Below are positions 3,652 through 60,650 of a stretch of 64,000 nucleotides of DNA, one piece after another. Under the pieces are notes generated by a model. It was not told where the DNA came from and searched no databases. It saw only the letters and a program-made list of their open reading frames with translations. Each line of letters starts with the position of its first letter. Positions within the stretch are counted from its first letter, which is position 1. The position numbers and the translations under genes are program-made. This DNA is from Eretmocerus hayati (Eukaryota; Arthropoda; Insecta; Hymenoptera; Aphelinidae): NCBI GenBank assembly GCA_029851415.1, contig CM056741.1, positions 72,096,282 to 72,160,281 on the forward strand. Reading direction: 5' to 3'.

Positions 3652-4047
3652 TTAACAAGTTGCGAGAATTACCCAGTTATGTTCTACTTGGAAGTTTTCA
3701 ATGAAATAACTCCTAATTCTGAGATAATACACACCTGTGAGGTCTGACTTTATCAGTTCTGAATATTTAACAAGGAAATCTTGTAGAGCCTTGATGTTCC
3801 CAGGTCTCACCCCACTTTTGTAGTGGGTACCAGCTACTTCTGTGATTTCTTTAAGGGTGCAATCTGACAATTTAAACTCTGTGTCCTTAATTCGATTTTG
3901 AAATTTTCCATACAGGCGAATGACTAAATCAACATATTTTCCATCTTCGAAGGCTAATCCTATTTTATCTTGAGAAGTAGTGGCTGGTTGACATTTTTGC
4001 TTCACATCAATCCCTTTTTGTTTCAGAAGTCGCAAAAAGTGGTCCAT
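3652..4047 (-). CDS. Unrecognised 131-aa ORF
   Basis: The frame starts at ATG (4047) in a good eukaryotic context (a purine three bases upstream and G after the ATG) and ends with a stop at 3652. The product is about 131 residues, hydrophilic, lysine-rich near the N-terminus (LLKQKGIDVKQK), with no signal peptide, membrane segment or cysteine cluster. Codon choice and length make it more credible than the surrounding frames. I recognise no domain. It may be a single-exon host gene, an exon, or a fragment of a transposon protein. No neighbour on the same strand suggests a function. Confidence 0.3.
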   Translation of the reverse strand: MDHFLRLLKQKGIDVKQKCQPATTSQDKIGLAFEDGKYVDLVIRLYGKFQNRIKDTEFKLSDCTLKEITEVAGTHYKSGVRPGNIKALQDFLVKYSELIKSDLTGVYYLRIRSYFIENFQVEHNWVILATC

Positions 4048-5822
4048 CCTTGAAACACTATATACAGACAGTAAAATATCTCATGAATTAAGTGCTAATG
4101 GGGTGCACATAGTAGCTTACATTTGAGACCCTTCTCAAGATCTGGGGATACATTCACTTACATTGTTATTAACTAAGTTTAAGTCGCTGATGAATAGAAG
4201 CTCGGTTTCAGATGCTGTAGTTTGCTATAACAAAAAAGTTGATGAAGGGCTTCTAAGTAAGAATTCAGAAGAAAGCTCCAAATTGCACTCACTCACTTGA
4301 TTCTGGAAGGGGAGATTAAAATTATCCGAATAATGTTATAGGTATTATTAACAAAGATTACTATTTTCAAGTGAATTCACATGAGAATCATTCAGAGGCG
4401 TATCTCAGATTATGGTCTAATGACAAGTACATGGAACTATTCCAACTGCTTAGTATACTCTGCGAGATGATCAAAAATTTGCGAACCAAAATTCCACTTA
4501 TCATGACAAAAGTAGCTGCTCTAGCATTTTGAGAAGGGACTAGTCAAGTGAGTATGGTGAATCAGCCCTTGTCAAGTATGGCTCTCCAAGTAATTTTCCA
4601 CAGTTTTTGCAACCAAAAGTGAGTGGGGGAAAAAGTTAGCTGGGGTCTTGAGATCACCTCCGCACTCCCCCACACACACACACACACACACACTACATGA
4701 ACACAAACACAAAAGGTAAGGAGAATGAGTTTCTCGTGGTTTATTGGTCCGAAAGAGTATGATATCCATATAGTTTGCTGAGATCGTACACAGATATATT
4801 CCAACAATAATTTGATGGAAATTTATAAAAGAATAGAGTCAACCATTGATTATATTATACGAGAGGGGTTGTGCGATTCCTTCCAATTAGTTGAGGTACC
4901 GCTCTGAGAAAGCCCTCCAAAAATCTCTTCATGCAGGGTTTTCCAGGGCGCTTTTTGGTGTTACAAACCGGGAGAAATCACATGGGGGGGGGGGCGATAC
5001 ATGTCAAAGGCCGAATCATCATGCTCACTCCCCTAGTCCCTTTGTCCATATAACAGATGAATCTAAAGAGTGTCATCTCCCCTAAGGAAACAATTGGGCC
5101 ATGGATGGGCTCAACTCAGCAACAAACGATTGAAACATCATTTGACTTGACTCTTTACTCAAATAAGCTACTCAAAGCTCCACATCAGTTGATCACTGAC
5201 ACCAGTGGAGAATGGAAATTTGCAATTGTCATTGGGAATTTATATTGTGAACAAAATCATTCAGATCTACTATTGGGTTGAGTCAGATGATGTAGCAACT
5301 CATACTGACTATTCATTTCAACTAGATGAGAGAAGGACCTAGCAAGCTAATTGAGCGATCTGGTCATCTGATCAAATGAAATGACCGAATCAAATCACCT
5401 GTACTGATTTTACAAAGGAGCCTCTTGTAAGTTTCAAGGAACAATGCTAACCATCAGCTCACTGTATGACAAAACTTGGAACAAACAACACAACAAACTT
5501 GATTTTGAAACTTGGACCAAGTGATGAGTTCATCATATCGGTGACCAGATTGGGGGTCTTTCTCCATGAGTGTTACTTTTTCCTATGTGTGTCATTGATT
5601 CTGATTACATATATTTGTATTATTCTTGTAAAAAGGTCTTCAGGCCCGTTGAAAAAATAATGATGAGAGCCTAAACATTATTTCAGGGAATCTCCTATTC
5701 ATACCTTGCGTATATCATTCGGATTAGCAAGTTTGCTTTAATAGGTGAGGACGAGATTTTTGAGTCTTATCAGAATAATTCGAGTGACCCGATCAGGTAA
5801 ACGCAGAATTTCTCGTTTCTCA
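4048..5822. other. No gene seen; short microsatellite and G-run only
   Basis: Contains a (CA)n tract at 4671-4693 and a run of ten or more G at about 4984-4994. Frames in this interval (for example 4891-5085 and 5466-5660) show no recognisable protein. Confidence 0.35.
4671..4693. repeat. (CA)n microsatellite
   Basis: Uninterrupted CA dinucleotide repeat of about 11-12 units. Confidence 0.95.
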
Positions 5823-5913
5823 TCCAAACTAGAGACCCTATCTCGAATGCATTCCAAACTAGAGACCCTATCTCGAATGCATTCCAAACTAGCGACCCTA
5901 TCTCGAAATGCAT
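5823..5913. repeat. 30-bp tandem repeat, three copies
   Basis: Three consecutive units of 30 bp (beginning TCCAAACTAGAGACCC). The first two are identical; the third has one substitution (AGAG to AGCG) and a one-base insertion near its end. It lies about 125 bp upstream of the hammerhead ribozyme, and a functional link is unknown. Confidence 0.95.
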
Positions 5914-6037
5914 GCGAGTGGGGGTACCTAATACCTCACATGCGCAATAGATAGATGACAGATCCAGCTCCTTTCCCGCAATCGACGGCAAAAGACCTCG
6001 ATTAGTATATAAGAGCGCATGAGTGCTTCATCGCCAA

Positions 6038-6120
6038 GCGTCCAGGGCACCACCTGCAACTCCAGCCCTGCTGATGAGTCCGGTTACGATGAACCAGGTT
6101 GCAGGTGGGGGACGAAACGC
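6038..6120 (+). ncRNA. Hammerhead ribozyme
   Basis: All core elements of a hammerhead self-cleaving RNA are present in order. Stem III is GCGT (6038-6041) pairing with ACGC (6117-6120). The cleavage triplet ends at C6042 (GUC). Stem I is CAGGGC (6043-6048) with GCCCTG (6065-6070). The first core strand CUGAUGA is 6071-6077. Stem II is GTCC (6078-6081) with GGAC (6110-6113). The second core strand GAA is 6114-6116, continuing into stem III as A6117. Every stem is perfectly paired and every invariant core base is present. Stem III is short (4 bp including the core-adjacent A-U pair), as in hammerheads carried by invertebrate retroelements such as Penelope-like elements and retrozymes (family knowledge). 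Loop I (6050-6060) and part of loop II (6098-6108) are perfectly complementary over 11 nt, unusually long for a tertiary loop contact. No host element could be identified around it. Confidence 0.9.
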
Positions 6121-7470
6121 ATAAGAGCCTTCTGCTCAAAGCGTGGTAGAGTTGACACCGTCAGAAGAAAAACAATTCACTGCTTGTAGATGACACTGAT
6201 TATTGACCTGTAGACTTTCCATTTTTGGATGACACTGTCCTGTACAGTTTTTATATGAGAGGAACTAAGTTCGGTTCTCAATTACGAGCAAAAAGCAATG
6301 ATTTGTTCTTCATTTCTTGATGACTAAATGACCTTCATTGTTTGAAGAGTCAAAATTATGTGCAAACCTTAAAAAAGGACCAAGGCATAGAATCCAAAAA
6401 GAATTTTGGGTGCCTTCGAAACTCGAAAAAACTGCTGCTTATGCGGGCTTATTCGGTAGCATAGCTGAACAGATGCCGCATAAATGCCGCGTGCGGTATC
6501 TATTCAGGCATAGCATCACAATTATCTCGTAGATCAGCAGCGCCAGATGCCCGCGCACGCGCACCGCATCTCCGCTATAACGCGCGATGCATCATGCACC
6601 GCTACGCTAAGTCGTGTTATGAACTACCAACCCTGTTTCCGAGTCGTGATATCGAGTTCTACACGCAATTCGTCATGGAAGTCCCCACTCGGACGGCGTG
6701 AGTTATTTCCACGTCCTGCCTCCTCGAACTCTCACCGTTTTCTACACATTCTCACCTCTGCTCAGATCAGATATTCGTCAGTACCGAACCCAGGTCACCT
6801 CTTGTCTGGCCATACTCCATGTTTGCGACATAGGACCCGGATGGGTAGTGATGTGGATTTCCGTGCCAATCAACATGTAAAATTACACAAATTTTCCTGG
6901 GCATAGCAGAGCTTGAGCAATTTTGTTGTTAACACATTCCGAACGTGCTTGAAATGCGGAACTTAGATGTATTTTTGTGATGATTATCATGAGGAGTTAT
7001 GTGCCTAATCTTAAGGGACCATCTCTCCAAAACACGGTCATATAAGGAAGTCTGCTCACTCCAAGTCGCGCACCCGTAGCCCGGGCGCGCGGGCGAGGAG
7101 TGATTCTCTACTCTGCCACCCAGAATCCAACATGGCCGGTTCGTTAGGTAGGCGCGCGCGGCCGCCAGCCGTCTGCTTGAAATGTGAATATAGCTATAAT
7201 AAAATCCAGTCGCGAATAGCCTGATAAAAATGCACGAGCAACACATTATCAGTACGCGTACTCGAGTGCGCACTAATAAAAATTGCCTTGCAAATCTAGT
7301 CCGATAAACTTGGCATTGACACAGGATCAAGCATAATACAGTCTAAGTCTGAATCATCCAAATTCCTGAATGATTGATTCAAGAATGAACTCTCCTCTTG
7401 AACTCAAATCCCAAGCTCCCCTCGAGGGCCCACGCTTTATATATGGCTTTTGGATTTGTAGTGGGAGCAA

Positions 7471-7541
7471 GCGAAGTGACCGAGTGGTTAGCGTGCTCCG
7501 ATAGCTTGTGTTTTGCCACCCCGGGTTCAGGTCCCGGGCGG
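7471..7541 (+). ncRNA. tRNA-like sequence (SINE-type Pol III head or tRNA pseudogene)
   Basis: Contains an A-box-like block (TGACCGAGTGG) and, about 40 bp on, a B-box-like GGTTCAGGTCC within a T-arm stem CCCGGG...CCCGGG. It is followed directly by a T-run of more than 20, which would terminate Pol III. The acceptor and anticodon stems do not pair well, so this is not a functional tRNA gene. It lies in the left arm of a 1.5-kb palindrome and has a mirrored partner at 7951-8025. Confidence 0.55.
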
Positions 7542-7950
7542 AATGTATTTTTTTTTTTTTTTTTTTTTTTCATTCAATGTTGATATCCATTTTTCCATAG
7601 ATTATGTGATAAGAATCAATAAACAGCCGAAAACCCATGCCCTAACTTTTTTCGTATTAGCAATGCTCGAGGTATCCAAAATACACCTAGTAATCGTGAC
7701 ATATTTTAATTCTGGAGTTTATACATCAGTCTAATACTGTTCATGGTATTGAGTATAATCGATATTGCTCATTTAGGTGTTGGATTTCAATTGAATAGAG
7801 TATATCATGGTCAGAAGTATTTTGGATATCTCCGAGCATTGCTGAAGTATGAAAAAAATTAGGGCATGGGTTTCATTCGGCTGTTTATCGATTTTCATCG
7901 CATAATCTATGGAAAAATGGATATCAGCATTGAATGAAAAAGAAAGTCAT

Positions 7951-8025
7951 TCTGACCGGGACTTGAACCCGGAGTGGCAAAACATAAGCTGCCGGAGCAC
8001 GCTAACCACTCGGCTACCGACCTCG
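7951..8025 (-). ncRNA. tRNA-like sequence, mirrored partner
   Basis: On the minus strand this unit has a consensus-quality A box TAGCCGAGTGG (8006-8016) and a B-box-like GGTTCAAGTCC within a CCGGG...CCCGG T-arm (7955-7971). The acceptor stem pairs only partly and no clean anticodon stem forms. It resembles a tRNA-derived SINE head or a decayed tRNA. It is the better preserved of the two copies. Confidence 0.55.
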
Positions 8026-8534
8026 CTCCAACTATAGATTCAAAAGCCATATATAAACCGCGGGCCCCCGAGGAGAGCTTGGAATTTGAGTTCAAGGAGA
8101 GAGTTCATTCTTGAACCCAGGAGTTTGAATGATTCAGACTTAGACTGTATCATCCTTGACCTTGTTTCAATGCCAAGTTTATCGGACTGGATTTGCAAGG
8201 CAATTTGTGTTAGTACGCGCTCAAGTACGCGTACTGATAATGTGTTTCTCGTGCGTTTTCAACTGTCTGTTCACGACTGGATATCATGGAAGAGGGCTCA
8301 AAAAAGCGAAAAGAAATCGTGTTTGAATTAGTTTTTATTATTGAAATTCGTCGCTATCGCGTGTTGTCCGATTAGCTATAGCTATATCTACATTCTAATG
8401 AGACGGCTGGCACCCGCGCCTGCCTACCTAACGGGCCGGCCATATTGGATTCTGGGTGGCAGAGTAGGGGAAATCGCTCCTAACCCGAGGTACGGGTGCG
8501 TGGTTTGGAATGAGCAGACCTTCTAATATGACCG

Positions 8535-10190
8535 AGCTCCGCAATTTTGAGAGGTTCACTCTGACTTTGGCGGGACCGAAGTCGCTTCCAAGGAGGATGA
8601 AAAAAAGATTGCAGACTGAATTCTCCATGGTGCGATCGTTTTTACTGTAAGTACAGATTTTCAAGAACAATAGCATATGTTGCTTGGTACAATTCGAGAG
8701 TCCTACGAGGTTGAGCGCGATGACAGCATTCCTTTGTATGTCTTTATAGAAAATTATATCATATCAGCTCTCTTCTTAGGGGAATCGTAACAAGTATCCA
8801 TTAACTTGAGCGAATTTCGAATCAAGTTCACACTGTCCCTTGTAAGAGCGTTGCAAGCCTTTCACTTCGAATCAAATTGAAAGATTCATCAAGAATAGAG
8901 AGCTAGTGTAACGAGTCGTATCGGCTCGTCACGACGATGTCTCGCTTCAACTCCTGTCAATCAGATACCGAGACTACGCGACTGCGGGTAAGTCTTCATC
9001 TTTCATCACAATCTGTTAGTGAGTGCAGTTGATGCACCTGATCACCAGCGATAATTTATCCTTGAGATCTAAGGCGTTCGACCTGTGTAGATCTGAACAG
9101 ACGTGTGTTCGAGCCTCCGACGTGGCACTGTATAATTTGACCAAGTTTCCTTTTTCCATAGTCAGAATGCCAAGAGCATTAACAAACCTACGTAAAATCT
9201 TATAGTAATGAGCAGTGAATAGTCTGTTTAGATAATGATCTATGATATGCCAAGGAGCATTATGGGGATTCCTACTTACAGAAAAAGTGAGAAGAGGGTA
9301 TCTTGATACTCACCTGGAAGGAAAAACAGTAAAATAGTGTGATTAGGATGACAGGTGAATCATTTTGTCTGAATCCAGGACAAGATGAGTTGTTGCTGCC
9401 ACGGAAGAATTTCTGAAACTTGACTGGGACTCTGGGACTGGAGGGAATCGAAGACGAAGGACACTTTCATTAACAGATTCTTTCTCGCATTCTTTAACCA
9501 GCCCTGGTTCGTGAGCTAAATTACCATCAAGACTGAGGTCCCTATTAGAGCTGGAATTATCTAACGAAATGAATTTCTCGGAACATCTGGAAATGGGCCC
9601 AGCTCAGCTCGGCGTGTCGATTTCCTAAAATTTGAATGAAATTCGTACGTACAGGTATGAGGTTGTACTTTGAAAGTTCTACAGAGCAGACTTCCCAGTA
9701 CAGCATTGACATGACAATCGCAACAATTTGGGAATCGCGTACTTTATTATTGAGATGAAAGTCATCACAAGTCGGCTTCGACGCACGCGAATGTGAAGCA
9801 GGGAATGTCATCCTGATGCTGCATCCTTGCCAATATAAGGGAATAACCGACAATTTAGTTCTACGAATCGGCTGTTCTAGAAGCTTCAAGGACGTTTTTT
9901 GGGGGATCGCCCAATGTCAGTATTCCGATGCGAAATCTTCTGCTATCTTGATTGCCGTGAGCAGGGTCTCTGAATCCCGCCAGAAAAGCCCTCCACATAA
10001 GAAAGATTTCTATTTTTGAGGAATTAATCAGCTACCAAAGTAGTTGAAAGAGATGACATTGCCAACATCAAGATCTGCGTGAATTCTTCTCTCTCTTGCT
10101 AAAACCGTTAATGCTGTGATTTTTGGATTCCCTCGTTCCTATGAAGTCATTGACTCACAACTTTTAAAGTCAATTTGCAAGGAATTGACC
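8535..10190. other. No gene seen
   Basis: Unique-looking sequence with short frames only. A 110-codon minus frame (9557-9889) has no recognisable motif. A GTTCGAGCCTCC block near 9108 resembles a B box, but no A box precedes it. Confidence 0.35.
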
Positions 10191-11721: not shown

Positions 11722-13993
11722 TTACATTTCTTGTCTGTGCAATAAAGATACCTTCTCTTTCTTCATCTTTATCATTCGTAGTTCCTGTAATGCATCTTTT
11801 CTGGCTTCGATTTTCAATGTATCTTCTTTATTTTTCCTAGCAATGGCAGCGTTTCGATTGGACGAAGCACTTTTGAAGGCTGAAATAATTTTTCTGGTTA
11901 TTACTAAATTATCCATGCCACCAATAGTTGTGATAGCATCATGAACTGATCTTTGAGCAACAAGGCCTTCTTCACTGAGATTTTCTACAAGATATTGTTT
12001 GTATACTGAAAAACTACGCTCTACAGAAGCATTTCCGTGAAACATGATGAAAGCCTTAAGTAGAAATGCTTCCAACTTCTCCGAAAAGTCTTCTTTTTTG
12101 AAAGCATCTGCTAGGAAAGAGTCTAGAGTTTGAGTCTTGCGGTCAAAAATTTTAATCAAGTTTTGGAAACTCTTCCTTGTAAGAATTCTTTCAAACTCCT
12201 TGCGAATTGAGTCAGCATCAACTGGTCTCATCCTATTTTTGTTAACGAAAACTTCTAAAGCTGCTTCCAAACGGGATTTGCACAGAGATTCCCGCTGCAT
12301 CATTCTTGGAGAAAGACAACTCAGGCCTCGCACGAGCTTGTAACCAAGAGGACATTCCAAACACAGTTTCTTACATAATTCTATCATGAATACGCGACAA
12401 CCCTCTCGAAATTTCAGTATTTCAAGATCTGATACAGAGTTTTTTCCTGCTCTCGCTTTTTTCAAAGCGGCATCGGCTGCAAAACCGAGCTCAAAAGAAG
12501 GAGCCAGGATGAGATGGCTCTTTTTCTTCAAATCTATCACCACGAGTTTAGCACCAGTGTCGTTTTGAGCCAGGATCTCAGGTAAAACTACTCGAGACAT
12601 AAGAGATCGAAGTAGCTCGTGAAGATCTTCGTACATGAATGGTAATAAAGGTGAATCACTTTGATAACCTTTCAAAAAAAACTTGCAATTCCGAGGCTAT
12701 AGAGCTCATAAAACTGAGTTTGGCCGGCAAGAGCTTATCCTGTACATATTTTTTGATAGTAACAAAATACTCTGAATCTTGTTGGTTTTTGGCTACTTTA
12801 GCATCGACGTATTTGATTTAAACCTGGGATAATCTGAACTGATCGGTCCATTACTTTGGCATTTTCAGTCCATCTGGTGTCACAGAAGGGCAATGGAAAA
12901 ATATCCATCTCACCGTACACTTTGAATTCTGCTCGCCTGACAGTATGCTTGTGAAAATATCTGTTCGAGTCACCAAGAAATGAGTCGATACCCCAATTAG
13001 TAGATATTAACGCAGTTCTGTAAGCTCCATCCACTATATGGAGTGAGCACGTACCCGTCTCGAGTACCTTTGGCTCATCTGGAGAGTCATTGAGAAAAGT
13101 CTTCAGATCATTGAGAAATTTCAACATCACAGCTGGCCCATCTATTGATATTTGGAGGAGACACTTCAATACCAGCCCATTCTTTTCGAGAGCTACTCTA
13201 AAAGCTTCAAGAATGTTTAATGCTTTTGCTACTTCCAAAAAACGGAAGTTAGATATCTAGAGTGAACTTTCCCATCTTTCCAAATACGAATCATCACATC
13301 CATTTGGCTTTTTTTAACAACTTTATTGAGTGCTTCGTCTATCGAAGCAGTTTATACTTCACAACCTCTGATGTCATCAGCTAACTCATTTTGAAAAAAA
13401 GGCCCTAATCCATGAGTAATTCCATAGCTGAGCTTGCCTTTTTCCATCTGAAATTTTTCAGCAGTTTCGCTATCAGGGAACATTCTTGGGAATCGTTTAG
13501 ACGTATCTGCGAAGTCTCTAGTCGATGCTTTCACCATCACGCGCTGGATTGATCATATAATTTCAGATTCAATAGCTTGTTCTTTCGCCGTGAACCTTGT
13601 CAAGTCTTTCTGTGTCACACTACCATTTTTCGACGGAATATTCAGGTTTTTCGACGTCACATTCAAGTTGCTTGGATTAACAACTATGTTTGAATTCAAA
13701 TCCTTGTCACATTCTCTTATAGTCATACTCTGTGGTTGACTTTTAGGTGAAACTGATGAAAATAGTGGTCGTTGTTTCGTTTTGGTTGAAACATTACTTT
13801 TGTGAGTTTTCCCCTCCTCGTGAGGTCTCAAAGCAGAAATACCCATGCTTTTGAGAGAAATTTCTGTTCTACAGTAAGTGCAATAAGCCAGGCAATTAGA
13901 TTTTGCTACATCCTTAAGCCAGAAAAACTCAGGATATCGTTGAAGATCCAACCACTCTAATTTGAAATGACATTGTCCTTTTGCTGATGACAT
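11722..13993 (-). pseudogene. hAT transposase pseudogene with BED-type zinc finger
   Basis: Reading leftwards from ATG 13993: a BED-like finger (CTYC...GISALRPHEEGKTH, residues about 38-65), a linker, and the catalytic core with DGPAV and the CDTRW block (13238-12798 segment). The last segment (12675-11722) carries the C-terminal hAT dimerisation motif around ASVERSFSVYKQYL. The frame is broken: TGA near 13552, TAA near 13350, a one-base shift in a T-run near 13240 (VFLEVAKAL resumes in another frame), and at least one more shift between 12800 and 12675. These breaks show it is inactive. In function the family cuts and pastes DNA; here only the relic remains. It lies inside the CAGGGTGTCTAC-bounded element. 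Confidence 0.8.
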
Positions 13994-18143: not shown

Positions 18144-18450
18144 TATGGGCCCCTTTATGCCCGTGACTTTACTGGTCGGGCCGCGGGGCTACCATTTCCC
18201 ATTGGGGGAATTATTGATACGGACCGGGGCGATTATTGACCAACTCGTCAATAGATTTACTTGGATTTATTGATAGGTTATGTAGGTATACATTGGTATA
18301 CAAACTGCGAGCTAGTCATAGCTAGCCGCCGGTAACGTAACTGCTGAGCGCAGGCTCTCCAGCCTTGCTCCCCATGCTTCCCCTACTCTCCCGCCGGAGG
18401 GGCGGTTGTAGCTATATAGGTTATATCTATGAGGGCACTCGGTGCCTACA
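18144..18450 (-). repeat. 3' LTR
   Basis: 307-bp terminal repeat reading as identical to 24297-24603. On the minus strand it starts TGTAGGCACC and ends GGGGCCCATA. A TATA-like block (CTATATAG) lies inside on the minus strand. Confidence 0.95.
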
Positions 18451-18453
18451 ATA

Positions 18454-18462
18454 CTCCCCCCT
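18454..18462 (-). promoter_or_regulatory. Polypurine tract
   Basis: AGGGGGGAG on the minus strand, three bases before the 3' LTR. This is the RNase H-resistant primer for plus-strand DNA synthesis. Confidence 0.85.
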
Positions 18463-18910
18463 GGGGAGACGGAGTCTCGGGTTTTTGAAAAAATGAAATT
18501 ACATGATTTTGAGGTAGACTGCTTAAGTTTGAGAGAAAAATGAATGGCTTTTCGCAATATGAATGAATCAGTTGTATTAATTACTAATAGGAATTTAGTG
18601 ACGGTATTGATCGTCAATGGCATGTAGTTTTTTGGTGAAAAAAGATGCCTTTGGTAGACGCAAACGTCTTTGGTGAACGTAGAAGTCTAGATAAGAAGAT
18701 AAAGAGTTGACAGAGGGTTCTCTCGAATAGGCTGAGTTGAAATGTAGAGCTTGAGCTGAGCTTGAGCTTTTAACATTCAACGAACCTGATATTACCTTAA
18801 CCTAAGTTATTTTCTGACAGATTCATCATGATAACTTAAGAACTAGTGGTATTGGACTGTCCCTAAATTAAGGACTACGGAAGAGTTAATTGCACTTAGC
18901 ACTGTTGCAC

Positions 18911-21900
18911 TCAACACACTATTTGCACTTTCTTCTTTCTTGCATATGTCCTTAGTGGCGGTGGATTATTGTCCACGGTTGGCGATTGCGCTGTTGGCTG
19001 TACGTTCGCAGTGCTCGGTCCGTCGGACGGGTTATTGGCGTACGAATGCTCGAGTACAACGTTTTGCGCGGTCGCGGGGTCTTGGCCGTCAGAGGCCGGT
19101 CCGGGCGCGGGTACAGGAGCAGTTTCTTCGATGAAAAATGCTGGTTTGAGCCGCTCGACCGATACCGATTTTATGACGCCATCGATGTCAATTTTGAAGA
19201 CCCTGTCCGACACACGTTCGATGATTTTATGCGGGCCGGTGTACGGTTGCTCCAGGGGAGGCTTTTCCGCGTCGACGCGTAAAAATACATGTGAACAGCT
19301 GTGCAGGTCCTTAAAATAGAACGTTCGACGCTTGTATTTCTGAGTGACCGGGACGGGACGAACCTGACGCATATATTCTCGGAATTCTTCAAGGAAGATC
19401 TGCGGGTCGGCCGTGAACTCGCCTTCGGCCATGAATTCACCTGGAATACGCAGGGTTGTACCAAACAAGTATTCCGCGGGCGAGGCATTTGTGTCGAGTC
19501 GGATACGCGTGCGCAGTCCCAACAACACGGTTGACAGCTTACGGGACCATTGGGGATCATCCTCGTGACACATGAGGGCTACTTTGAAATCTCGGTGCCA
19601 TCTTTCTACTAGACCGTTCGCGGCAGGATGATACGCTGTGGTGTGTATGCGCTGTGTGCCTGTCATGGAAAGTAACGCGTCGAGTATGGTAGACTCGAAT
19701 TGGGAACCTTGATCTGTTGTGATCGTGACCGGAGCACCGTATCGCGAGATCCAGAGATCGTAGAAGGCTCGTGTGATGGTCTTGGCTGTGATGTCTCGAA
19801 GAGGAATTGCTTCTGGCCATCGTGAGAATCTGTCAACAATGGTCAGACAATAGCGATATCCTTCGGAGTCGCGCCAGGGACCGACTATATCCATGTGGAT
19901 GTGTTTGAATCGAGCATCGGGCTCTGTGAAGGGTTGCGGTAGCTTTTTCACATGGCGTGATACTTTTGATCTTTGGCACTGGAGACAGTTTTTAGCGAAA
20001 CGAGCGACGTCTCGAGAGATCGTTGGCCAGAAATAATTCCGTCGGATCAGGCGATCTGTAACGCGATTATTGGGGTGGGCCGGCTCGTGTATAAGCTTGA
20101 AAACTTGTTCTCGTAGTGGAGCTGGTATGTACGGACGGATGGACTCGCCATGTACATCAAAAAATAGAGACACGTTATTCCACGTCATTTGTTTATAACG
20201 ATTATGGAAGTTCGGTGCTTCACGTATCAGAGCAAACTCCTGATCGGCGAGCTGTGCATCGGCGAGCTCTTTCAGATCAAGACTTGGCTCCAAGACGATA
20301 GAGTCGATCCGTGAAAGCGCATCAGCGACAACGTTACTCGAGCCCGGAATATACTCAATATCTGTAGTAAATTGGCTGATGTAGTTGAGCTGACGAAGGC
20401 GCCGTGGATCGGCTTTATCGTGTGTTTGCTGAAAGACGTACATTAACGGCTTGTGATCGGTGACAGCTTTAAAAGCGCGCCCCTCCAAGAAATATTTGAA
20501 GTAACGTATACTTTCGAAGATAGCTGTGAGTTCGCGATCGTAAGTTGAATAGTTTCTTTGAGCAGAGTTGAATTTGGACGAATAGAAAGCAAGCGGTTGC
20601 CAACGGCCGTCGAGGAATTGTTCGAGCACGCCTCCCATGGCCTTGTCCGAAGCATCCGTGACTATGCGCGTCTTTGCGTCACCTGAAGGATGCGCGAGGA
20701 GGGCAGCGTTTGCGAGGTCCGATAGAGTCTGTGTAAAGGCTTTTTCAGCTTCTTCAGTCCAGACGAGCTCTCTTTTGTCGTTTTTCTTTGGTTCAGGAAG
20801 AATCGCGTGCAATGGAGCTTGAGTCTCAGCGGCGTGTGGTATACAGCGGCGGTAGAAGTTGACCATGCCTAGGAAGCGGCGAAGTTCACATACGGTCGAG
20901 GGTTTTGGCATTTTTGAAATTGCCTCAACTCTCTCGGGTACGGGCTTAACGCCTTCCGAGTTAACCAGATAGCCGAGAAAGACGACTTCAGATGCGCCGA
21001 ACGTGCATTTATCAACGTTAATCTGAAGGTTGAAATCCCTGAGTCGTTTGAAAACTTCGCGTAGATGCTCTTCGTGCTCTTCGGGGGACGATGAGAAGAT
21101 CAGAATATCATCCGCGTAGATAAAAACGTAGTCAAGGTCGCGAAAGATGTGATTTAGCCATCTTTGCAGGGTAGCAGAAGCATTTTTTAGCCCAAATGGC
21201 ATAAACAAATACTCGAATAGCCCGAATGGTGTTATTACTGCTGTCTTGTGTATATCCTCTTTTGCAACGGGAATTTGGTAAAAGGCTTTACGTAAGTCCA
21301 GCGTAGTAAAGATCTTGGCGCCACGTAAATTGTTGGCGAAATCCAGAACGTGTGTAGGTGGATAGCGGTCGGGGATTGTGACGGAGTTGACCCCTCTGTA
21401 ATCACCGCAGACCCTCCATGTCCCGTCTTTCTTTCCAACCATGTGTATGGGACTGGCCCATGAGCTGCTGGAAGGTCTGAGGGCGCCATATCCAAGAAGT
21501 TCGTTAAAGTCTTTCTTGGCCGCAGCGAGCTTGTCCGGCGGAAGACGGCGAGCTTTGGCTGGTTTGGGTACTCCTTTCGAAACGATATGATGGAAGATTT
21601 GATTGTGAATCTCATCACGAATTTCGGGGAGTTTTTGGCGCGGGTTGACGGTCTCTGGAAATTCGATTAACATTTTCCTGTATTTGCAGGCGGTGCTGAT
21701 TGTTTTGATCCCTAAGTATTTGACTCTTTTGATGGTACCTTGTGTCACGAGACATGTTAAGTTGTCGGCGAGAAGCTTATTGCGGAGGTCGACCGTAAGA
21801 CCGAAGTGGACTAAAAGGTCTGCTCCGATAATAGCGTAAGGTACATCGGCTACAACGAAGTTCCACGTGAAATCGCGGCGTAGACCTAGATTCAAAACGC

Positions 21901-22111
21901 GTCTTTCTTCGCCGTAGGTCTTGATTACGGTATCGTTGGCTGCGTAAAGCACGCGATCCGTGGGTTTCTTGTGAATCGCAGTACGGGGAATGACTGATAT
22001 CTCAGCGCCTGTATCGATTAGGAAAGTTGTTTGCGAATTCCGATCGAGTAAGTGGAGACGTTTGGAAACACGATGTTCTACCCCCGCCTCCGACGAGGCA
22101 GAGACTCTCAG
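18911..22111 (-). CDS. Pol polyprotein (protease, RT, RNase H, integrase)
   Basis: The pol frame is open from the frameshift site (first pol codon at 22111) to the stop at 18911, 1066 codons. A GTG at 21952 is not a true start: the frame continues upstream and includes the aspartic protease motif LIDTGAEISVIP (about 22040-22005). Counting from codon 21952: RT at about residues 100-300 with FTTLDLRKAF (D219) and YADDILIF (about 279); RNase H with TDASD (432) and YDRELTAI (about 471). Integrase has a zinc domain H622/H626/C656/C659 and a catalytic triad D688 (HMDIVGP), D747 (TDQGSQF), E783 (NGLVERW). All key residues are present and no stop or shift is seen. The product would be made only as a Gag-Pol fusion. 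After integrase comes a short Pro-rich tail. Confidence 0.95.
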   Translation of the reverse strand: MRVSASSEAGVEHRVSKRLHLLDRNSQTTFLIDTGAEISVIPRTAIHKKPTDRVLYAANDTVIKTYGEERRVLNLGLRRDFTWNFVVADVPYAIIGADLLVHFGLTVDLRNKLLADNLTCLVTQGTIKRVKYLGIKTISTACKYRKMLIEFPETVNPRQKLPEIRDEIHNQIFHHIVSKGVPKPAKARRLPPDKLAAAKKDFNELLGYGALRPSSSSWASPIHMVGKKDGTWRVCGDYRGVNSVTIPDRYPPTHVLDFANNLRGAKIFTTLDLRKAFYQIPVAKEDIHKTAVITPFGLFEYLFMPFGLKNASATLQRWLNHIFRDLDYVFIYADDILIFSSSPEEHEEHLREVFKRLRDFNLQINVDKCTFGASEVVFLGYLVNSEGVKPVPERVEAISKMPKPSTVCELRRFLGMVNFYRRCIPHAAETQAPLHAILPEPKKNDKRELVWTEEAEKAFTQTLSDLANAALLAHPSGDAKTRIVTDASDKAMGGVLEQFLDGRWQPLAFYSSKFNSAQRNYSTYDRELTAIFESIRYFKYFLEGRAFKAVTDHKPLMYVFQQTHDKADPRRLRQLNYISQFTTDIEYIPGSSNVVADALSRIDSIVLEPSLDLKELADAQLADQEFALIREAPNFHNRYKQMTWNNVSLFFDVHGESIRPYIPAPLREQVFKLIHEPAHPNNRVTDRLIRRNYFWPTISRDVARFAKNCLQCQRSKVSRHVKKLPQPFTEPDARFKHIHMDIVGPWRDSEGYRYCLTIVDRFSRWPEAIPLRDITAKTITRAFYDLWISRYGAPVTITTDQGSQFESTILDALLSMTGTQRIHTTAYHPAANGLVERWHRDFKVALMCHEDDPQWSRKLSTVLLGLRTRIRLDTNASPAEYLFGTTLRIPGEFMAEGEFTADPQIFLEEFREYMRQVRPVPVTQKYKRRTFYFKDLHSCSHVFLRVDAEKPPLEQPYTGPHKIIERVSDRVFKIDIDGVIKSVSVERLKPAFFIEETAPVPAPGPASDGQDPATAQNVVLEHSYANNPSDGPSTANVQPTAQSPTVDNNPPPLRTYARKKKVQIVC

Positions 22112-23370
22112 TTTTTTGTCTTCTTGAAGTTACATTTTTCCGGATCTCTACATTTTTCTGCTCTACCTTTCAAGGTACGGTGGTACCAGCAAATCCACGT
22201 GTCCGGGTCGCGGCGGTTTGCGGGCGTATGCTCGCGAGACTTGCTGCCATTGTTGGAGCGGTTGGTAGGGCGAGAGCGGTTCGAAAGTTGGGACTTGAGT
22301 GTTTTTACCTCGTTCGACAATGCTGCGATTGACTCGGTTAGAGACTGCACAGCGGAGGCCTCTGAACCCGTTGAGTCGCTCAATGCTGCTACGTATGACG
22401 CCGCGGAATTGCCGCGCTGGGTCTCAGCCCAAGAGTCGGCATAGTCTCCTAGAGTCTCGAGTGGTGCGGTCTTGAATGGGAGAAGAGCGCTCTGGCACGC
22501 CGGAGGGAGTTTTTCTAGGAAAATTGATCTGAGGAAAGATTCGTCGACATTACGGGGGGCCAAGCTGCGCAGACGGTATAGGATCTGCGAAGGCTTGCCT
22601 TCTGATTTCACCTTGCCTTTCAGAAAGTCGCGCAAGCGGATTTCTTCCGACACGGTGGTTGTTTTTAAGATCCTTGTCTTCAGCTGCTCGTAATAATCGG
22701 TCGCGGGGCGCTTTGCAATCAGGTCCTCGACCGTGATAATCGTTTCCGTGTCGAGCGCCATGACGACAAAATCTCCCTTTTCGCGAGAATCCGTCACCCA
22801 GTGAGCTCTGAACGACGCCTCGGCTTGCAGAAACCAGGCTCTGGCATCCTCACTTTTAAAATCCTTCAAGCGGTTCAAGGGTTTAGGTTGCCGCGGAGAG
22901 TGGGACGGCGTAAAAACAGGTGCCAGCGGGTCGAAGGCGGCGGTTACCCGAGCTTGGAGCACCTTAGGTTCCGATTCAATTTCTTGTGGCATTTGTGACG
23001 GGGGTGTAGCTTGGGTACCGTCTGGCGCGGTTGTTGACTGGGTTTCTTCCACGTGGGTTTCGAGACCATCTGTGAGAAGATCCCCAATGGGCGCCGATGA
23101 CTGCACCGGGTTTGACTGAGACTGCGTTTTCAGAGCCGACTGTACCGACTTTTCGACATGCTCCGCGATTTGCGCGTTCATAGTTTGCATCAGCGAGGCG
23201 ATAATGGTGTCTAAGGATTCTTGCGCCAAGATCACGGGATTAGCCGCGGTACTTGGTGGTGGGCCACCGGAAGCCTCGTCCTTTTTTTCCGTCCCCGTCA
23301 TGTTTTCCCCTTGTCGAAATGGCTTATTATTCCTCAGGCGAGACACTTGAGGAGAGTGCTCAACTGGCAT
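22108..23370 (-). CDS. Gag protein
   Basis: 420 codons from ATG 23370 to TGA 22108. The first ~140 residues are Pro/Thr/Gln-rich and low in complexity. Residues about 150-330 form the capsid-like helical region (FDPLAPVF...AWFLQAEASFRAHWV...GDYADSW). A basic stretch near 370-390 precedes a Cys-His box (C-x2-H-x9-C-x5-C, CWYH...KC...C) at about residues 393-413. This box type rather than CCHC is typical of CsRn1-like elements. Gag forms the particle and binds the element RNA. Its stop lies directly after the slippery site that gives access to pol. Confidence 0.92.
   Translation of the reverse strand: MPVEHSPQVSRLRNNKPFRQGENMTGTEKKDEASGGPPPSTAANPVILAQESLDTIIASLMQTMNAQIAEHVEKSVQSALKTQSQSNPVQSSAPIGDLLTDGLETHVEETQSTTAPDGTQATPPSQMPQEIESEPKVLQARVTAAFDPLAPVFTPSHSPRQPKPLNRLKDFKSEDARAWFLQAEASFRAHWVTDSREKGDFVVMALDTETIITVEDLIAKRPATDYYEQLKTRILKTTTVSEEIRLRDFLKGKVKSEGKPSQILYRLRSLAPRNVDESFLRSIFLEKLPPACQSALLPFKTAPLETLGDYADSWAETQRGNSAASYVAALSDSTGSEASAVQSLTESIAALSNEVKTLKSQLSNRSRPTNRSNNGSKSREHTPANRRDPDTWICWYHRTLKGRAEKCRDPEKCNFKKTKN
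22111..22117 (-). promoter_or_regulatory. -1 ribosomal frameshift site A-AAA-AAC
   Basis: In the gag frame the last codons are ACA AAA AAC TGA, giving the slippery heptamer A AAA AAC with the gag stop immediately after it. A -1 slip leads into a frame that stays open through protease and the rest of pol. The heptamer is one of the strongest known eukaryotic/retroviral -1 sites (established knowledge). Downstream sequence (22060-22105) is GC-rich and could form the stimulatory structure. Confidence 0.9.
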
Positions 23371-24283
23371 TAGACGAACGCGATCACACGGGCTTACACG
23401 TCGTAAGAGTTAGCTGTGCACACGCAGGTGCCTCACAGATTAAAATGCCACGTGTGACGTCAGTTGACGCTGACTTTGCGATAAGCTGGCTGAACCTGTA
23501 TGTAACCGGGTCATCGTTGACGCGTGCGTGTGACTTGGACGCGCGCGAGTCAGAATGTGGTTATCCGCGAGTGATCTGGGCGCGCGCGAGTTAGCATTCA
23601 GTTGCGCGTGGGTCAACTGGGCGCGCGCGAGTCAGCATCTAGTTGCGCGCGAGTGAATTGTACTGTACGCGAGTGAGCTGAGCGCGCAAGCAGACGGGTC
23701 GCGCATCGCAGAGCGCCACTCGCGAGGATTCAAAATGGCCGCAAGAGGCGAGCGCGCGGTGGATCGACGAGCAGACTACAGGGAGAGAGGCGCGCGGCTA
23801 AATCGAGCGACTGCGCGGATGATCGTGCGCGCGCGGGACCGAGCACGCGAGAACGAAGATACGTATATATGTATACGACGCGCGCTGTAGTACTTGCGCT
23901 TCGATGATGCTGCTGATGATGCCTCGATGATGATGATGGTGCTGCTACTCGTAGTTGTCCCGGGTGCGTGGGCGTTGGCAGGGTTGCGGGGCTTGCCGCA
24001 TTGGCAAGTCTAGGCCCGCGGCGTGGTCCAGGTGATAGACGAGGTTGAGGTTAGGTTACCTCGTGCTGCATGGGGTCAGCGAGGTTATGTTGACCGGTGC
24101 AGCATGCGGTCGGCGAGGTCATGTACACCTTCTGCACGTGGGCGATGTAGGACACACTCTCATACCTTGTCTGGTGTTTGTGAGGCTGTCCACATGTACT
24201 AGGGCAGATGTGGCCCTTTCCGTGAAAGAGGGCCTCGACCTGCGCAATGCCCGCCGTTATGTTCGTACTCCGAAAATTGGAGC
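23371..24283 (-). other. Retrotransposon 5' leader
   Basis: About 0.9 kb between the PBS and gag. It is GC-rich with repeated GCGCGCGAGTCAGC-like and GTGAGC units at 23530-23700 and GATGAT runs near 23900-23940. It probably holds the packaging signal and 5' UTR. Short frames here are not conserved. Confidence 0.7.
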
Positions 24284-24295
24284 TCGGGGTCACCA
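24284..24295 (-). promoter_or_regulatory. Primer-binding site, tRNA-Trp type
   Basis: TGGTGACCCCGA on the minus strand, one base inside the 5' LTR. It is complementary to the conserved 3' end of eukaryotic tRNA-Trp (TCGGGGTCACCA). Confidence 0.85.
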
Positions 24296-24296
24296 A

Positions 24297-24603
24297 TATG
24301 GGCCCCTTTATGCCCGTGACTTTACTGGTCGGGCCGCGGGGCTACCATTTCCCATTGGGGGAATTATTGATACGGACCGGGGCGATTATTGACCAACTCG
24401 TCAATAGATTTACTTGGATTTATTGATAGGTTATGTAGGTATACATTGGTATACAAACTGCGAGCTAGTCATAGCTAGCCGCCGGTAACGTAACTGCTGA
24501 GCGCAGGCTCTCCAGCCTTGCTCCCCATGCTTCCCCTACTCTCCCGCCGGAGGGGCGGTTGTAGCTATATAGGTTATATCTATGAGGGCACTCGGTGCCT
24601 ACA
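24297..24603 (-). repeat. 5' LTR
   Basis: 307 bp, reading as identical to 18144-18450. Minus-strand ends TGTAGG and CCCATA. Drives transcription leftwards. Confidence 0.95.
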
Positions 24604-56640: not shown

Positions 56641-57301
56641 TGTTGTTCCCCATGAGATCCTTTATTGATCCTCTGCAAATTCTCGTCAATACTCGATTCA
56701 GACCATAAATAATGAAATAACGAAGGATGGAGCGAGATGTCGAGATAAGATATAGGATATGTCGGTTTTAATCTGTTAATTTACAGTTGATAATACATGT
56801 ACAACCTGTTTCAGAATTCGCGTACACCCCGATAAAATTAGGTAGCGGTGATTTTGTTATTTCGATTGGTGAGATCGAGAGATTTTGTTACGGTTTCCTG
56901 AGTTTGTAACTGTCGTGTGAAAAAACGTATTTTTTAGCTTTATGTCAGTAACGCTTGGTGTGTAATGCTTAACGGCTAGCATTACACTAAAGCGTTACAT
57001 TGTGTATTCTGCTTGGTTATGGCTCGGAGGGGTGTGTTTTTCGGCTGCTCTTGTGTTGATTTTGGACCGTGATCTTTTTGTGCGAGCTGTTGGTGTCGGG
57101 AAATTAAAAATTAATTAGGTGTGCTGTGCGTGTTGGGGCGTTCGCGTTTTTGTGAGAGCCGTGTCTTCGGCGGGTGCGGTGGCAGCGGCATTGCATAATT
57201 CCATGCGCGCTTCTGCAGAGGCAACGACGCAGTGCTTTTCGCGTTCGAGATTGAATTTTTGTGTTGTGGGAGTCGCGGAGAGTGTTGTTGAATAATAAGG
57301 T

Positions 57302-57769
57302 GTGTGGAATAATGTTGTGTGGCATGCGTGTCGAGAGCCGACAAACAGACAACCGTGGCCTTGGCCTTGGCCACTGCAGCAGAAGGTGGGCATGCCGTAT
57401 CGTAGCAGAAATCTCGTAGCAGATAACGCGGTACAGATGATGCGATGTGTCTGCTGCGGGCCATGTTTTCGGTGCACCAATTGCATGGCCCGCGACCGGC
57501 TTATGCTAGATGATGCCACGTGCTTGTGTTGTGTTTAATGTTTTTCGTCGTTCGAGGAGCATTCCTGTCGAATTGCCTCGTTGGGAATGTTTATTTTCTG
57601 CTGTGATGCGTGGCTTGAGCTGTCGTCCGCGGAGGCTCAGTGTGGACAAGGTAGCGGACCCAATGCGGATCGAGCTATTTTAAGTTCTCCGAGTGACCCT
57701 TTTGCTCGCAAGAGGTCATACCTCATTTCTTCACTTAGGCTAGGGGATTATCTGATTCAATCGACCTGA
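57302..57769 (+). pseudogene. Cys-rich ORF, left-arm copy, one nonsense codon
   Basis: Starts MWNNVVWHACREP and runs through CVCCGPCFRCTNCMARD and ATCLCCV to TAA at 57536-57538. The same frame continues beyond the stop (CFSSFEEHSC...LGDYLIQST) to 57769. The right-arm copy has CAA at the stop position, so the left copy is one substitution from the full frame. No known domain. The Cys spacing (C-x-C-C-x2-C-x2-C-x2-C, then C-x-C-C) suggests metal binding. Confidence 0.5.
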
Positions 57770-58189
57770 TTTGGAGTTTCGTCAGTGATCCTCTACTTAA
57801 GTACCAGAGATTACTGCTGTTGAGGTGAGTCAATGGAGTTGGGTTTCGTGTACGCGATAAACCGTATGATACGTCACATCATTTTTTGCGCGCGCTCAAT
57901 TACTGAATCATCGCGTTTGTAAGAAATTGTACTGATCCCGTTTTTCTTCTTTCCTTTCCAACATGAGCCTCGCGTACGCTATGGTCTAACTCGCTCATGC
58001 ACGACAGCGATTTCAGCGTCAACCAGAATATTTTAGTTCATACTCGCGTATGCTAATTTCGACAATTTATCAGGTGTTCCTTTTCCCTTTCCGCAGTGCA
58101 GATCATCTTTTGGGTAATTCGCATGAACGGAGATGATGGTTCACGCTATGATTTTACCTATGTAAACAACGTGAAATGACTCTTTCACT

Positions 58190-58822
58190 TTATCTCTTGA
58201 TAAACTTCGGGGCTTTTTCTCCAACACAAAGTATCGTATTGTGAACTTGAGAGATTCGTCGCCCTGTGGAATATCGATGATTGTTACTCCACGCGTAACG
58301 ATGTCCACTGTAGCGCCCGCGAGAAGCTTCTTTCGCGGACGCTGAATTTCCCAGATAGGAAGAAAGAGACCTTTCTCTCGTAATCGTATAATTGAGAAGC
58401 TGACAAAGTATCTGGAGAAGGTGGGAAATTTCCGTGTGCGCGGGCGACTTTCCTCTTCGCGCATGCGACAGTTTCCATTCTCTAACTTGTCTGTCGAGGT
58501 AATTCCGAATTTCGCGCGCGCTATGTGAGTAATTTTCGCGTACGCGAAAGATATCAATCCAAGCTCGACCGCCACGAGTTTCGAACTTTTGCGTGCTGAA
58601 GTGAAAAATCTTTGCGAACACGAAATTTTCCCAACCTGAACTCGTTTGGGCCGAATTTTGGATTACCGCGCACGCGAAAAATTTTCCGGCCTCAAGTGAC
58701 CTGGTCCGAGTTTCGAATCTTCGAGGGCAAATAGCGATCGCACACGAAAATTCAACACTTTCCCGGATCTCTGAACTTTCTCCAATACCACTGTAAAATT
58801 CGTCATTGCCAGTCATAATCAA
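58190..58822 (-). other. Outward-facing 210-codon frame, left arm
   Basis: Overlaps a 144-codon frame (58141-58575, product ending KVKESFHVVYIGKIIA) in another phase. Both are mirrored in the right arm. Five residue changes separate the 210-codon copies and three the 144-codon copies, too few to decide which frame, if either, is coding. No domain recognised. Confidence 0.3.
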
Positions 58823-59107
58823 CTATCACGATGCTTCGCTATCTATGAGACTGAGTATTACAACAATAGGGAACCAACATTCCTGATGCACAAAAATTGT
58901 TGTCTAACAATCATTCGAATTGATTAGTAATTATTGAGGCATATGCTCAGCTCCTCGTCGGACAGCCAAACCCGATGGGGAGAGCCTCCGACCCTGCAGC
59001 GGCTGCGCATGTTTTGCATTTGAGTTGCACGGTCTTCATTCTGCCGTTGCGATGAGTGAGCCTCTAGAACCACAGGAAAATTGGGAGATCGAGATTTCCC
59101 AGGCCTA

Positions 59108-59940
59108 AAAATACCCTCGTACTTCGGATTGGGGATAGAGCGAATCCCCCGCCACTGTCGCGTACGCGGAATCAGAAGTGCTTCGCGTACACGAACGTGT
59201 CTTCTCCTCGCTCGCGCGAAATTCTCGGCAGGGTGCCTTGCAATGTTATTGCGTACGCGAAATTTTTCGCGCACGCGTATTAGTGTTTCGTGCACCCAAT
59301 AATTGAGTATTCTGCTTCTCATGTCATCGTTACCGATTGCGGTCTACGCAGACTCACTAGTTGTTCGCGCACGCGAGGTGTACCCCCGTACTTCGGAATG
59401 AGGATAGAGCGGATCCCACGCCACTGTCGCGTACGCGAGAACAGAAGTGCTTCGCGTACGCGAACGTGTCTTCTCCTCGCTCGCGCGAAATTGACGGCAG
59501 GTTGCCTTGCAACGTTATCGCGTACGCGGAATTTTTCGCGCACGCGTATTAGTGTTTCGTGCACCCAACAATTGAGAATTTTGCTTTTCGTGTCATCGTC
59601 AGCGAATGCGGTCTACGCAGACCCGTTAGCCATTCGCGCACGCGAAAGGTACCCTCGTACTTCGGATTGAGGATAGAGCGAATCTCACGCCACCGTCGCG
59701 TACACGAAAACAGAAGTTATTCGCGTACGCGAAATTGTCTTCTCCTCACTCACGCGAAATTCTCGGCAGGTTGCCTTGCAACGATATGGTGTACGCGAAA
59801 TTCTCCGCGCACGCGTATTAGTGTTTCGTGCACCCATCGTTCGAGTATTTTGCTCTCCGAGTTAGCGTAAGCAAATGCGGTCCACGCAGACCCGCTAGAT
59901 GTTCGCGCACGCGGAAGGTACCCTCGTACTTTGGATTGGG
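59108..59940. repeat. About 270-bp tandem repeat, three to four copies
   Basis: The block beginning CCTCGTACTTCGGATTG recurs at about 59107, 59386, 59654 and 59924. Each full unit contains several TTCGCGTACGCGAA- or TCGCGCACGCG-type palindromes. Non-symmetric with the second array, so the centre is not palindromic. Confidence 0.85.
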
Positions 59941-59984: not shown

Positions 59985-60650
59985 GATGCCAGTTTTTGTG
60001 CTTCAGAAATCTTGATCGCCTAGATTTCCTGCGGTTGTACAAGCTCACTCATCGCAACGGCAGAATAAAGTCAAATTTTCCTTGTCGTTTCGGAGACATA
60101 GAGACCAAAGGTAGAATAATCTTGAAAATATGTCGAATGTTCAGAACCACAACCTTCGATCGTATTCAGAACGAAACCAGTAGAACGCTCCAGAAGAGCT
60201 TGGGCAAGTGTCATGCAAAACATGCGCAGACGCTGCAGGGTTTGAGGAGCTGAGCTCATGCGTTATCAATGTGAAAATCGACTTTCTGTCCGATGCCGTT
60301 CTTTGTGCTACAGGAATTTTGATCGCCTATAGTTTTCCTGTGGTTCTATAAGCTTACTCAAAGCAACAGCAGAATAATGTCGAATTTTTCTTGTCGTATT
60401 GGAGCCATAGAGACCAAAGGTAGAATAATCTTGAAAATATGTCGAATGTTCAGAACCACAACCTTCGATCAAATTCAGAACGAAACCAGGAGAACGCTCC
60501 AGAAGAGCTTGGGCAAGTGTCATGCAAAACATGCGCAGCCGCTGCAGGGTGTAAACCCGAAGCGCATCGTGTTGACCTGTGCGACGACGAGCTGAGCTCA
60601 TGCGTTATCAACGCGAAATTCGAATCTCCGTCTGATGTCATTTCCAGGCC
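59985..60650. repeat. About 306-bp tandem repeat, two copies plus a partial
   Basis: TTGTGCTTCAGAAATCTTG (about 59996) recurs as TTGTGCTACAGGAATTTTG (about 60302). The unit includes GAATGTTCAGAACCACAACC and GCAAAACATGCGCAG, and its end blends into the right arm sequence. Confidence 0.8.

Follow-up and report, generated by a model that had tools for sequence, protein, structure and literature searches.

A type III hammerhead ribozyme in a truncated solo LTR of a probable LTR retrozyme family in the genome of Eretmocerus hayati

Results

The stretch of DNA analyzed here (the window) comprises 64 kb of an Eretmocerus hayati contig (C1:72096282-72160281, forward strand); whole-genome searches covered the 692-Mb assembly of 17 contigs. 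A hammerhead ribozyme motif lies inside a solo long terminal repeat (LTR) that is truncated at its 3' end, the last 40 bp of the LTR being missing (Table 1). The original prediction had found neither an LTR nor a reverse transcriptase nearby. Both statements have to be given up, the first because the motif itself is part of an LTR fragment, the second because a young Ty3/Gypsy element with a reverse transcriptase is located 12 kb from it. The solo LTR and its flanks, at least 5 kb in all (window 3735-8737), are also present on another chromosome (L183, C3:21100000-21105000) with 99.94% identity; the duplication or insertion behind this is large and recent, and its borders lie beyond the stretch compared. 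Three 30-bp tandem repeats (5823-5913) stand just upstream of the solo LTR, and a palindrome-like fold-back element occupies 7035-8534, its arm pieces matching inverted at 78-84%. Elsewhere in the window, near-identical open reading frames (ORFs) were seen by eye on opposite strands (57115-59322 and 60439-62637), forming a large inverted duplication near 269- and 309-bp tandem repeats. Adjacent ORFs on the minus strand (11722-13993) look by eye like a broken hAT-type transposase and have one distant database relative (28%) besides the window's own protein.

Table 1. Coordinates of the features in the window
Feature	Position	Strand	Remarks
Solo-LTR fragment, retrozyme family A	5921-6152	+	LTR positions 4-234 of 274; 97% identity to the L165 LTR
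TATA-box-like TATATAAG	6006-6013	+	32 bp upstream of ribozyme; putative promoter element
Type III hammerhead ribozyme	6038-6120	+	GUC triplet; predicted cut after C6042, between C6042 and C6043
Stem III	6038-6041 / 6117-6120	+	GCGU paired with ACGC
Stem I	6043-6048 / 6065-6070	+	CAGGGC paired with GCCCUG
Core boxes	6071-6077; 6114-6117	+	CUGAUGA; GAAA
Stem II	6078-6081 / 6110-6113	+	GUCC paired with GGAC
Loop 1 strand of 11-bp loop-loop helix	6050-6060	+	CCACCUGCAAC
Loop 2 strand of 11-bp loop-loop helix	6098-6108	+	GUUGCAGGUGG; 3' part of loop 2
Extra hairpin within loop 2	6082-6095	+	GGUU-ACGAUG-AACC; GGGU/ACCC in most family B rows
Young Ty3/Gypsy element	18144-24603	-	LTRs 18144-18450 and 24297-24603, 307 bp, 100% identical
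Pol ORF of the Gypsy (RT, RNase H, integrase)	18911-21952	-	Pfam RVT_1, RT_RNaseH, Integrase_H2C2, rve

The motif runs in the order helix III, GUC, helix I, CUGAUGA, helix II, GAAA and helix III. With the invariant core, three stems and an open helix III, its topology is type III (RF00008), and Rfam is in agreement. All core bases and the three paired stems that had been predicted are present, by letters and by descriptors; the type, which had been left unnamed, is that of plants and viroids and not the type I usual in animals. Of the description as a canonical hammerhead, the core fits and the loops do not, loop 1 having 16 nt and loop 2 having 28 nt. A full descriptor (core, GUC and three stems) fits once in the 64 kb, as does a looser one, and the full descriptor had no fit in 100 first-order Markov surrogates of the same length. 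Across the genome, the pattern CGTC-N{24,32}-CTGATGA-N{32,40}-GAAACG occurs at 194 places versus 1 for the reversed pattern. The covariance search gave a more divided answer: RF00008 (Hammerhead_3) matches a stretch of 601 bases at 33.5 bits (E = 2.2e-5) but falls short of its gathering score of 48.5, so that a default Rfam scan of the window lists nothing. We attribute this shortfall to the long loops. In a scan of six loci with 15 ribozyme copies, 9 were listed at an E of ≤0.01, all at 33.5 bits, while both copies at L181, both at L232 (family B, below) and two old LTRs at L182 did not appear at this threshold; six rows of miRNA families, all under their own gathering scores, were taken as chance. 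A covariance model of our own (R1) scores the window motif at 116.6 bits, which is no evidence because the window row belongs to the model, and also matches the opposite strand (19 bits, E = 0.0055), in our reading because the motif is near-palindromic. The hammerhead is, as a sequence motif, real, and self-cleavage at the GUC triplet is predicted.

The long loops have a further property. CCACCUGCAAC in loop 1 and GUUGCAGGUGG in loop 2 could form 11 Watson-Crick pairs, whereas among 20,000 shuffles of the window's two loops none reached 11, the best value being 10 (15 times). The longest loop-loop run was 4 in at least 52 other type III-like hammerheads from viral and prokaryote contigs, a comparison that says little on rarity because most of these have short loops. 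Covariation was assessed on 39 aligned rows (42 distinct stretches fitting a loose pattern, less two chance matches and one overlapping duplicate). These are a sample of the 194 pattern places, the rows are not independent, and copies with a broken core (e.g., CTGAAGA in L179) are missing from them because the pattern demands an intact core. The named structure, including the loop-loop helix, had 96.2% of its cells paired (96.7% in the 11-bp helix), a value reached by none of 500 shuffles, as against 33.8-49.4% for slid versions of the structure. Cells with both-sided changes numbered 8, against a mean of 2.0 in the shuffles, none of which reached 8, and the covariation score was 0.073 (1 of 500 as high). 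Other measures were less telling: both-sided changes occur at 3 pairs, a number that 103 of the 500 shuffles attain and that the structure slid by -1 exceeds with 5; the 17 further pair types were reached by 233 of 500. The original prediction had called for other copies that carry compensatory changes, and this is borne out in part. Copies are many, and both-sided changes fall on two of the 11 pairs of the loop-loop helix and on one pair of the extra hairpin within loop 2, but none of the 39 rows has a both-sided change in stems I, II or III, where variation is one-sided or nil. One A-U pair of the loop-loop helix is G-C in all six family B rows, and because it is common to all six this change is probably one event by descent; a C-G pair has become U.G in three family B copies and U-A in one.

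Covariation speaks for an RNA helix that joins the two loops, and the evidence would fit a pseudoknot and an inactive hairpin equally. The unconstrained minimum-free-energy fold of the ribozyme stretch is a long hairpin and not the hammerhead (-34.3 kcal/mol; z-score, only -1.22), and the nested hammerhead without the loop-loop helix reaches -18.0 kcal/mol. The long hairpin likewise has the 11-bp helix at its core; since this helix would be worth -19.6 kcal/mol as a free duplex, the two states may be close in energy.

A search of the genome with window 6020-6180 gave at least 41 matches (best 40 of 395 candidates scored). Among the matches listed, two, namely the window itself and C3:21102284, agree in 161 of 161 letters, 38 have 98-99% identity over 6022-6152 or nearly so, and one has 91%. 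Many ribozyme copies are paired about 605 bp apart. Among the 100 pattern places listed of the 194, 5 are chance-like and 10 can be assigned by sequence to family B; all these copy counts are lower bounds or pattern counts. The pairs belong to elements of about 880 bp, here called family A, with two 274-bp LTRs, each with a hammerhead, and about 330 bp between them. Twenty places were fetched: nine full elements, eight solo LTRs, one locus with three LTRs (L173), the copy of the window's stretch (L183) and a disrupted element (L184). In the nine full copies the LTRs are 274-275 bp long with TG...CA borders, starting with TGTGGGG or nearly so and ending in TTCCTACA, and the internal region has 322-334 bp. 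The primer-binding site (PBS) follows one base after the LTR and begins with TGGTGACCCCGACGTGATT in four copies and with TGGTAACCCGCGACGTGATT or near variants in five; the polypurine tract (PPT) GCGGGGGGAGTGGC precedes the 3' LTR, with single changes in L166 and L180. All nine have a perfect 4-bp target site duplication (TSD) and, by pattern, two ribozymes with an intact core, and their LTR pairs differ at 1, 0, 0, 0, 2, 0, 1, 0 and 0 positions. No gag or pol was found in these copies, the longest ATG frames having 50-92 aa. A perfect TSD flanks six of the eight solo LTRs and fails in two. From 20 more divergent places, the TSD could be tested in eight older full copies with two whole LTRs and placeable ends; it is perfect in four (L217, L229, L230 and L231) and not perfect in four (L218, L219, L225 and L227). 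The supposition that the hammerhead marks a reduced retroelement was correct, and family A is, by its letters, a repeated, non-autonomous and presumably recently mobile LTR retrotransposon.

In L165, whose G+C content is 0.49, the predicted cuts are 606 nt apart, and the internal region has at least 40 genome matches at 78-100% identity (best 40 of 102 candidates scored). Folded as a circle, the 606-nt unit reaches -193.5 kcal/mol versus a mean of -175.5 for shuffles; none of 30 mononucleotide shuffles, a weak control, was as low. Set against L165, 12 divergent copies show 0-8 differences in the ribozyme (83-88 aligned positions) and 7-77 in the rest of the LTR, the highest value coming from L189a, which has a rearranged 5' part. 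In 10 of these 12 rows, which are not independent, conservation is relatively higher in the ribozyme than in the rest; in L217b and L230b the ribozyme is not better conserved than its surroundings.

A second family (B) has the same ribozyme in a different LTR, whose likeness to that of family A is confined to the ribozyme stretch and the end boxes. Its 250-bp LTR, as seen in L232, starts with TGTGGGGATTC and ends with GCCCCACA, and TATATAAG again precedes the ribozyme. L232 has the PBS TTGGTGACCCCGACGTGAT, the PPT GGGGGGGAGTCT, a TTTG/TTTG TSD, an internal region of 267 bp, two ribozymes with a cut-to-cut distance of 517 nt and a longest ATG frame of 116 aa. BLAST of L165 against L232 gave one long match (LTR 121-221, 86.5%), which is the ribozyme with about 18 bases after it; a second likeness covers the first 19 bases of the internal region, where the PBS starts, and the remainder of LTR and internal region gave just matches of 7-18 bases with an E of 0.2 or worse. 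Concatemers occur in both families. L255 consists of five B LTRs and four internal regions, (LTR-internal)x4-LTR, in units of 516, 516, 516 and 517 bp of which the first three are identical, and the whole array is flanked by an ATTT/ATTT TSD. In L173, with three A LTRs, the internal regions agree at 323 of 328 positions and the outer LTRs at 274 of 274, and the TSD of the array is imperfect (3 of 4 letters). Unequal recombination between LTRs is another way in which such concatemers can form.

The Gypsy element of the window carries gag- and pol-like ORFs, identical LTRs starting with TGTAGG, the PBS TTGGTGACCCCGA, the PPT GGGGGGAGTAT and a GAGA/GAGA TSD, and looks freshly inserted. Its PBS, PPT and LTR-end boxes are common to the retrozymes, which makes it a likely type of helper, and such a Gypsy may move them; the rest of the sequence seems not to be shared. 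Plant retrozymes, too, have end boxes in common with Ty3/Gypsy and not the rest, according to PMC4918200. Another Gypsy family (L207) has a longer PBS, TTGGTGACCCCGACGTGATT, and an LTR start, TGTAGGGTAC, close to the TGTGGGGTAC of family A; no TSD was found at the ends of the L207 copy. L199 was rejected as a helper element: it has about 200 bp in common with the internal start of family A and no retrozyme LTR upstream of the PBS, and in the 8.7-kb stretch L243 there is no LTR pair and no pol-sized ORF. The retrozyme-type PBS and first internal letters also stand beside the LTR of an L190-type Gypsy in L198 and beside other sequence in L199. The same PBS is found in L209 (C1:196922000-196931999), an LTR element of about 6.7 kb whose LTRs measure at least 630 bp and are 99.8% identical; with no stop-to-stop frame of ≥150 aa in the 10-kb stretch, it is a large non-autonomous relative.

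Several LTR families seem to use one primer, presumably tRNA-Trp. ARAGORN called no tRNA gene matching the PBS at 16 PBS loci, 4 further loci and 20 of 56 sites with the tRNA-end pattern. That pattern, ATCACGTCGGGGTCA, occurs at 56 genome places, and in 22 of 24 contexts read (the exceptions being L261 and L275) it is followed by CCA, as in the PBS read backwards; none of these contexts was called a tRNA gene. The assignment to tRNA-Trp is tentative and draws on the mention of this tRNA for some hymenopteran Helenus families and for Gypsy-32_NVi in PMC10886601, and not on a gene from the E. hayati assembly.

The described LTR retrozymes have plant hosts, and the indirect evidence here points away from a plant. 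COX1-like pieces on C1, C2 and C3 carry in-frame TGA (10 TGA and 1 TAA in the best), which would fit copies of a mitochondrial gene in which TGA encodes Trp. The repeat (TTATGGG)n stands at three of seven chromosome ends fetched (both ends of C1 and the start of C4; L244, L247 and L248) and was not seen at the ends of C2 and C3. This telomere repeat is near the (TTATTGGG)n of chalcid wasps given in PMC8977481, and its 7-bp unit differs from the units of 5, 8 and 9 bp given for Hymenoptera in that insect survey. Organism names accompany ten of the best 120 of 5,534 relatives of the window Gypsy Pol; all ten are animals, five of them Hymenoptera.

Discussion

Our results suggest, with a probability that we put at roughly 85%, that the hammerhead lies in a truncated solo LTR of a young family of animal LTR retrozymes. 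The elements have LTRs, PBS, PPT and 4-bp TSDs, they form concatemers, a type III hammerhead stands in both LTRs, gag and pol are missing, and the end boxes are, by eye, those common to retrozymes and Ty3/Gypsy. In the cycle that we propose, a Pol II transcript would start shortly before the ribozyme of the 5' LTR, as TATATAAG suggests, and the hammerhead of each LTR would cut it. By analogy with published retrozymes, a host ligase would then circularize the cut-to-cut piece of 606 nt (517 nt in family B). A Gypsy reverse transcriptase, primed at the PBS, may copy the circle once or several times, and a Gypsy integrase may insert the resulting LTR-flanked monomers or concatemers with 4-bp target duplications. 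A probable role of the 11-bp helix between the loops is to keep stems I and II together; in addition, it may enable a switch of the RNA to an inactive hairpin. The window copy itself would be a dead end, a truncated solo LTR that retains an intact ribozyme and could not alone yield a circle. A more far-reaching proposal, that this animal lineage runs or recently ran the complete cycle, with 606- and 517-nt circles, multi-round copying by Gypsy reverse transcriptase and a two-state switch of the loop helix between a cutting and a closed form, is tentative, and we would sooner bet against it than for it as a whole.

Part of the same evidence could be read without any role for the ribozyme. LTR, PBS, PPT and TSD are as in any terminal-repeat retrotransposon in miniature (TRIM), the minimum-energy fold is a hairpin, and Hymenoptera are stated to have TRIMs with tRNA-like sequence in their LTRs (Helenus; PMC10886601). 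The element might be an ordinary TRIM whose LTR RNA ends as a long hairpin and whose hammerhead has no part in transposition. We consider this unlikely, because the core and stems are kept in two families with otherwise unlike LTRs, pattern matches outnumber those of the reversed pattern by 194 to 1, and the ribozyme is better kept than the surrounding LTR in 10 of 12 copies. Much less probable still is a known animal hammerhead element, such as a non-LTR type I retrozyme, a Penelope-like element or a Terminon. Most described animal hammerheads sit in such elements (PMC7229834; PMC7761336), but here the topology is type III, LTRs, PBS, PPT and 4-bp TSDs are present, and the element has neither room for nor a frame of a reverse transcriptase; an origin from a type I retrozyme or Penelope is ruled out by topology and anatomy together. 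Termite genomes contain type III hammerheads akin to those of termite HDV-like agents, with loop 1-loop 2 pairing (PMC7936874), yet a remnant of an HDV-like or viroid-like agent is hardly to be expected in an interspersed LTR element with TSDs, and the long loops here differ from the layout there, in which a long helix I contains an internal GCCR loop. Use of the ribozyme by a host gene at the window locus, which its intactness in a truncated LTR might suggest, is improbable given that it is letter-identical to the ribozymes of young mobile copies, the gene content around it being judged from an ORF list.

The reading as an animal LTR retrozyme family joins an animal host to the plant design of LTR retrozyme, and such an element has probably not yet been described from animals, in keeping with the suggestion in the original prediction that the host element might be new. 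In the literature as available to us, type III ribozymes belong to LTR elements of plants and type I ribozymes to non-LTR elements of animals: metazoan retrozymes are presented as type I and without LTR, PBS or PPT in PMC7761336 and PMC7229834 and were still called non-LTR with type I in 2024 (PMC11722881). Among the open-licence papers listed for ribozymes and retrozymes, none was found to report an animal LTR retrozyme. Priority is not settled by this, because the search covered open-licence texts only and because PMC7936874 refers to a study in preparation on fly ribozymes of type III; the elements may also stand in Repbase as TRIMs with no ribozyme noted. If our reading is true, LTR retrozymes are not a plant specialty, and the animal gains a second, LTR-based route to small circular RNAs. 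The combination of animal host and plant design raises the question of horizontal transfer or two origins of the design. Insects have been named in a review as a possible source of the plant elements (PMC7761336), and the E. hayati copies make this question testable.

Among known systems, the plant LTR retrozymes are the most similar in design, with a type III hammerhead in both LTRs, PBS, PPT, 4-bp TSD, solo LTRs and multimers; their LTRs of about 300-400 bp enclose a non-coding middle of 300-700 bp, and distant plant families, like the families here, are hardly alike except for the ribozyme and two Ty3/Gypsy end boxes (PMC4918200; PMC7761336). In the E. hayati families the host is apparently an animal, the LTRs are somewhat shorter (250-275 bp), and the G+C content (0.49 in L165) is below the value of over 55% reported for plants. 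The primer is tRNA-Met in the plant elements and, we presume, tRNA-Trp here. The loops, of 6-8 nt and 4 nt in most plant hammerheads (PMC7936874), are long here and could form the 11-bp helix. Metazoan non-LTR retrozymes are likewise animal, non-coding hammerhead repeats that pass through circular RNA, as was demonstrated for them and would hold here by analogy, but they are tandem type I units of about 170-400 nt that lack LTR, PBS and PPT, whereas the elements here are type III and have all three (PMC7229834). TRIMs such as Helenus and Ajax are also small, protein-less animal LTR elements, and animal Helenus has 4-bp TSDs and a Gypsy-type PBS; the Helenus LTR contains tRNA-like and the Ajax LTR 5S-like sequence, in the place of which we find a hammerhead (PMC10886601). 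Type III hammerheads with a loop-loop pseudoknot are reported from toad and termite HDV-like agents, termite genomes, Drosophila pseudoobscura and other flies and satCYDV-RPV (PMC7936874; PMC3088659). They resemble the present ribozyme in the Watson-Crick pairing of loops 1 and 2, and several stand in insect genomes. The termite genomic hammerheads are isolated motifs and those described here lie inside LTRs; in the toad and termite ribozymes about 4 bases (GCCR/YGGC) are paired, starting from an internal loop within a long helix I (PMC7936874), while here a terminal loop 1 could form 11 bp with the 3' portion of loop 2, more than the 4 to 6 bp given for loop-loop helices in PMC3088659 and PMC7936874.
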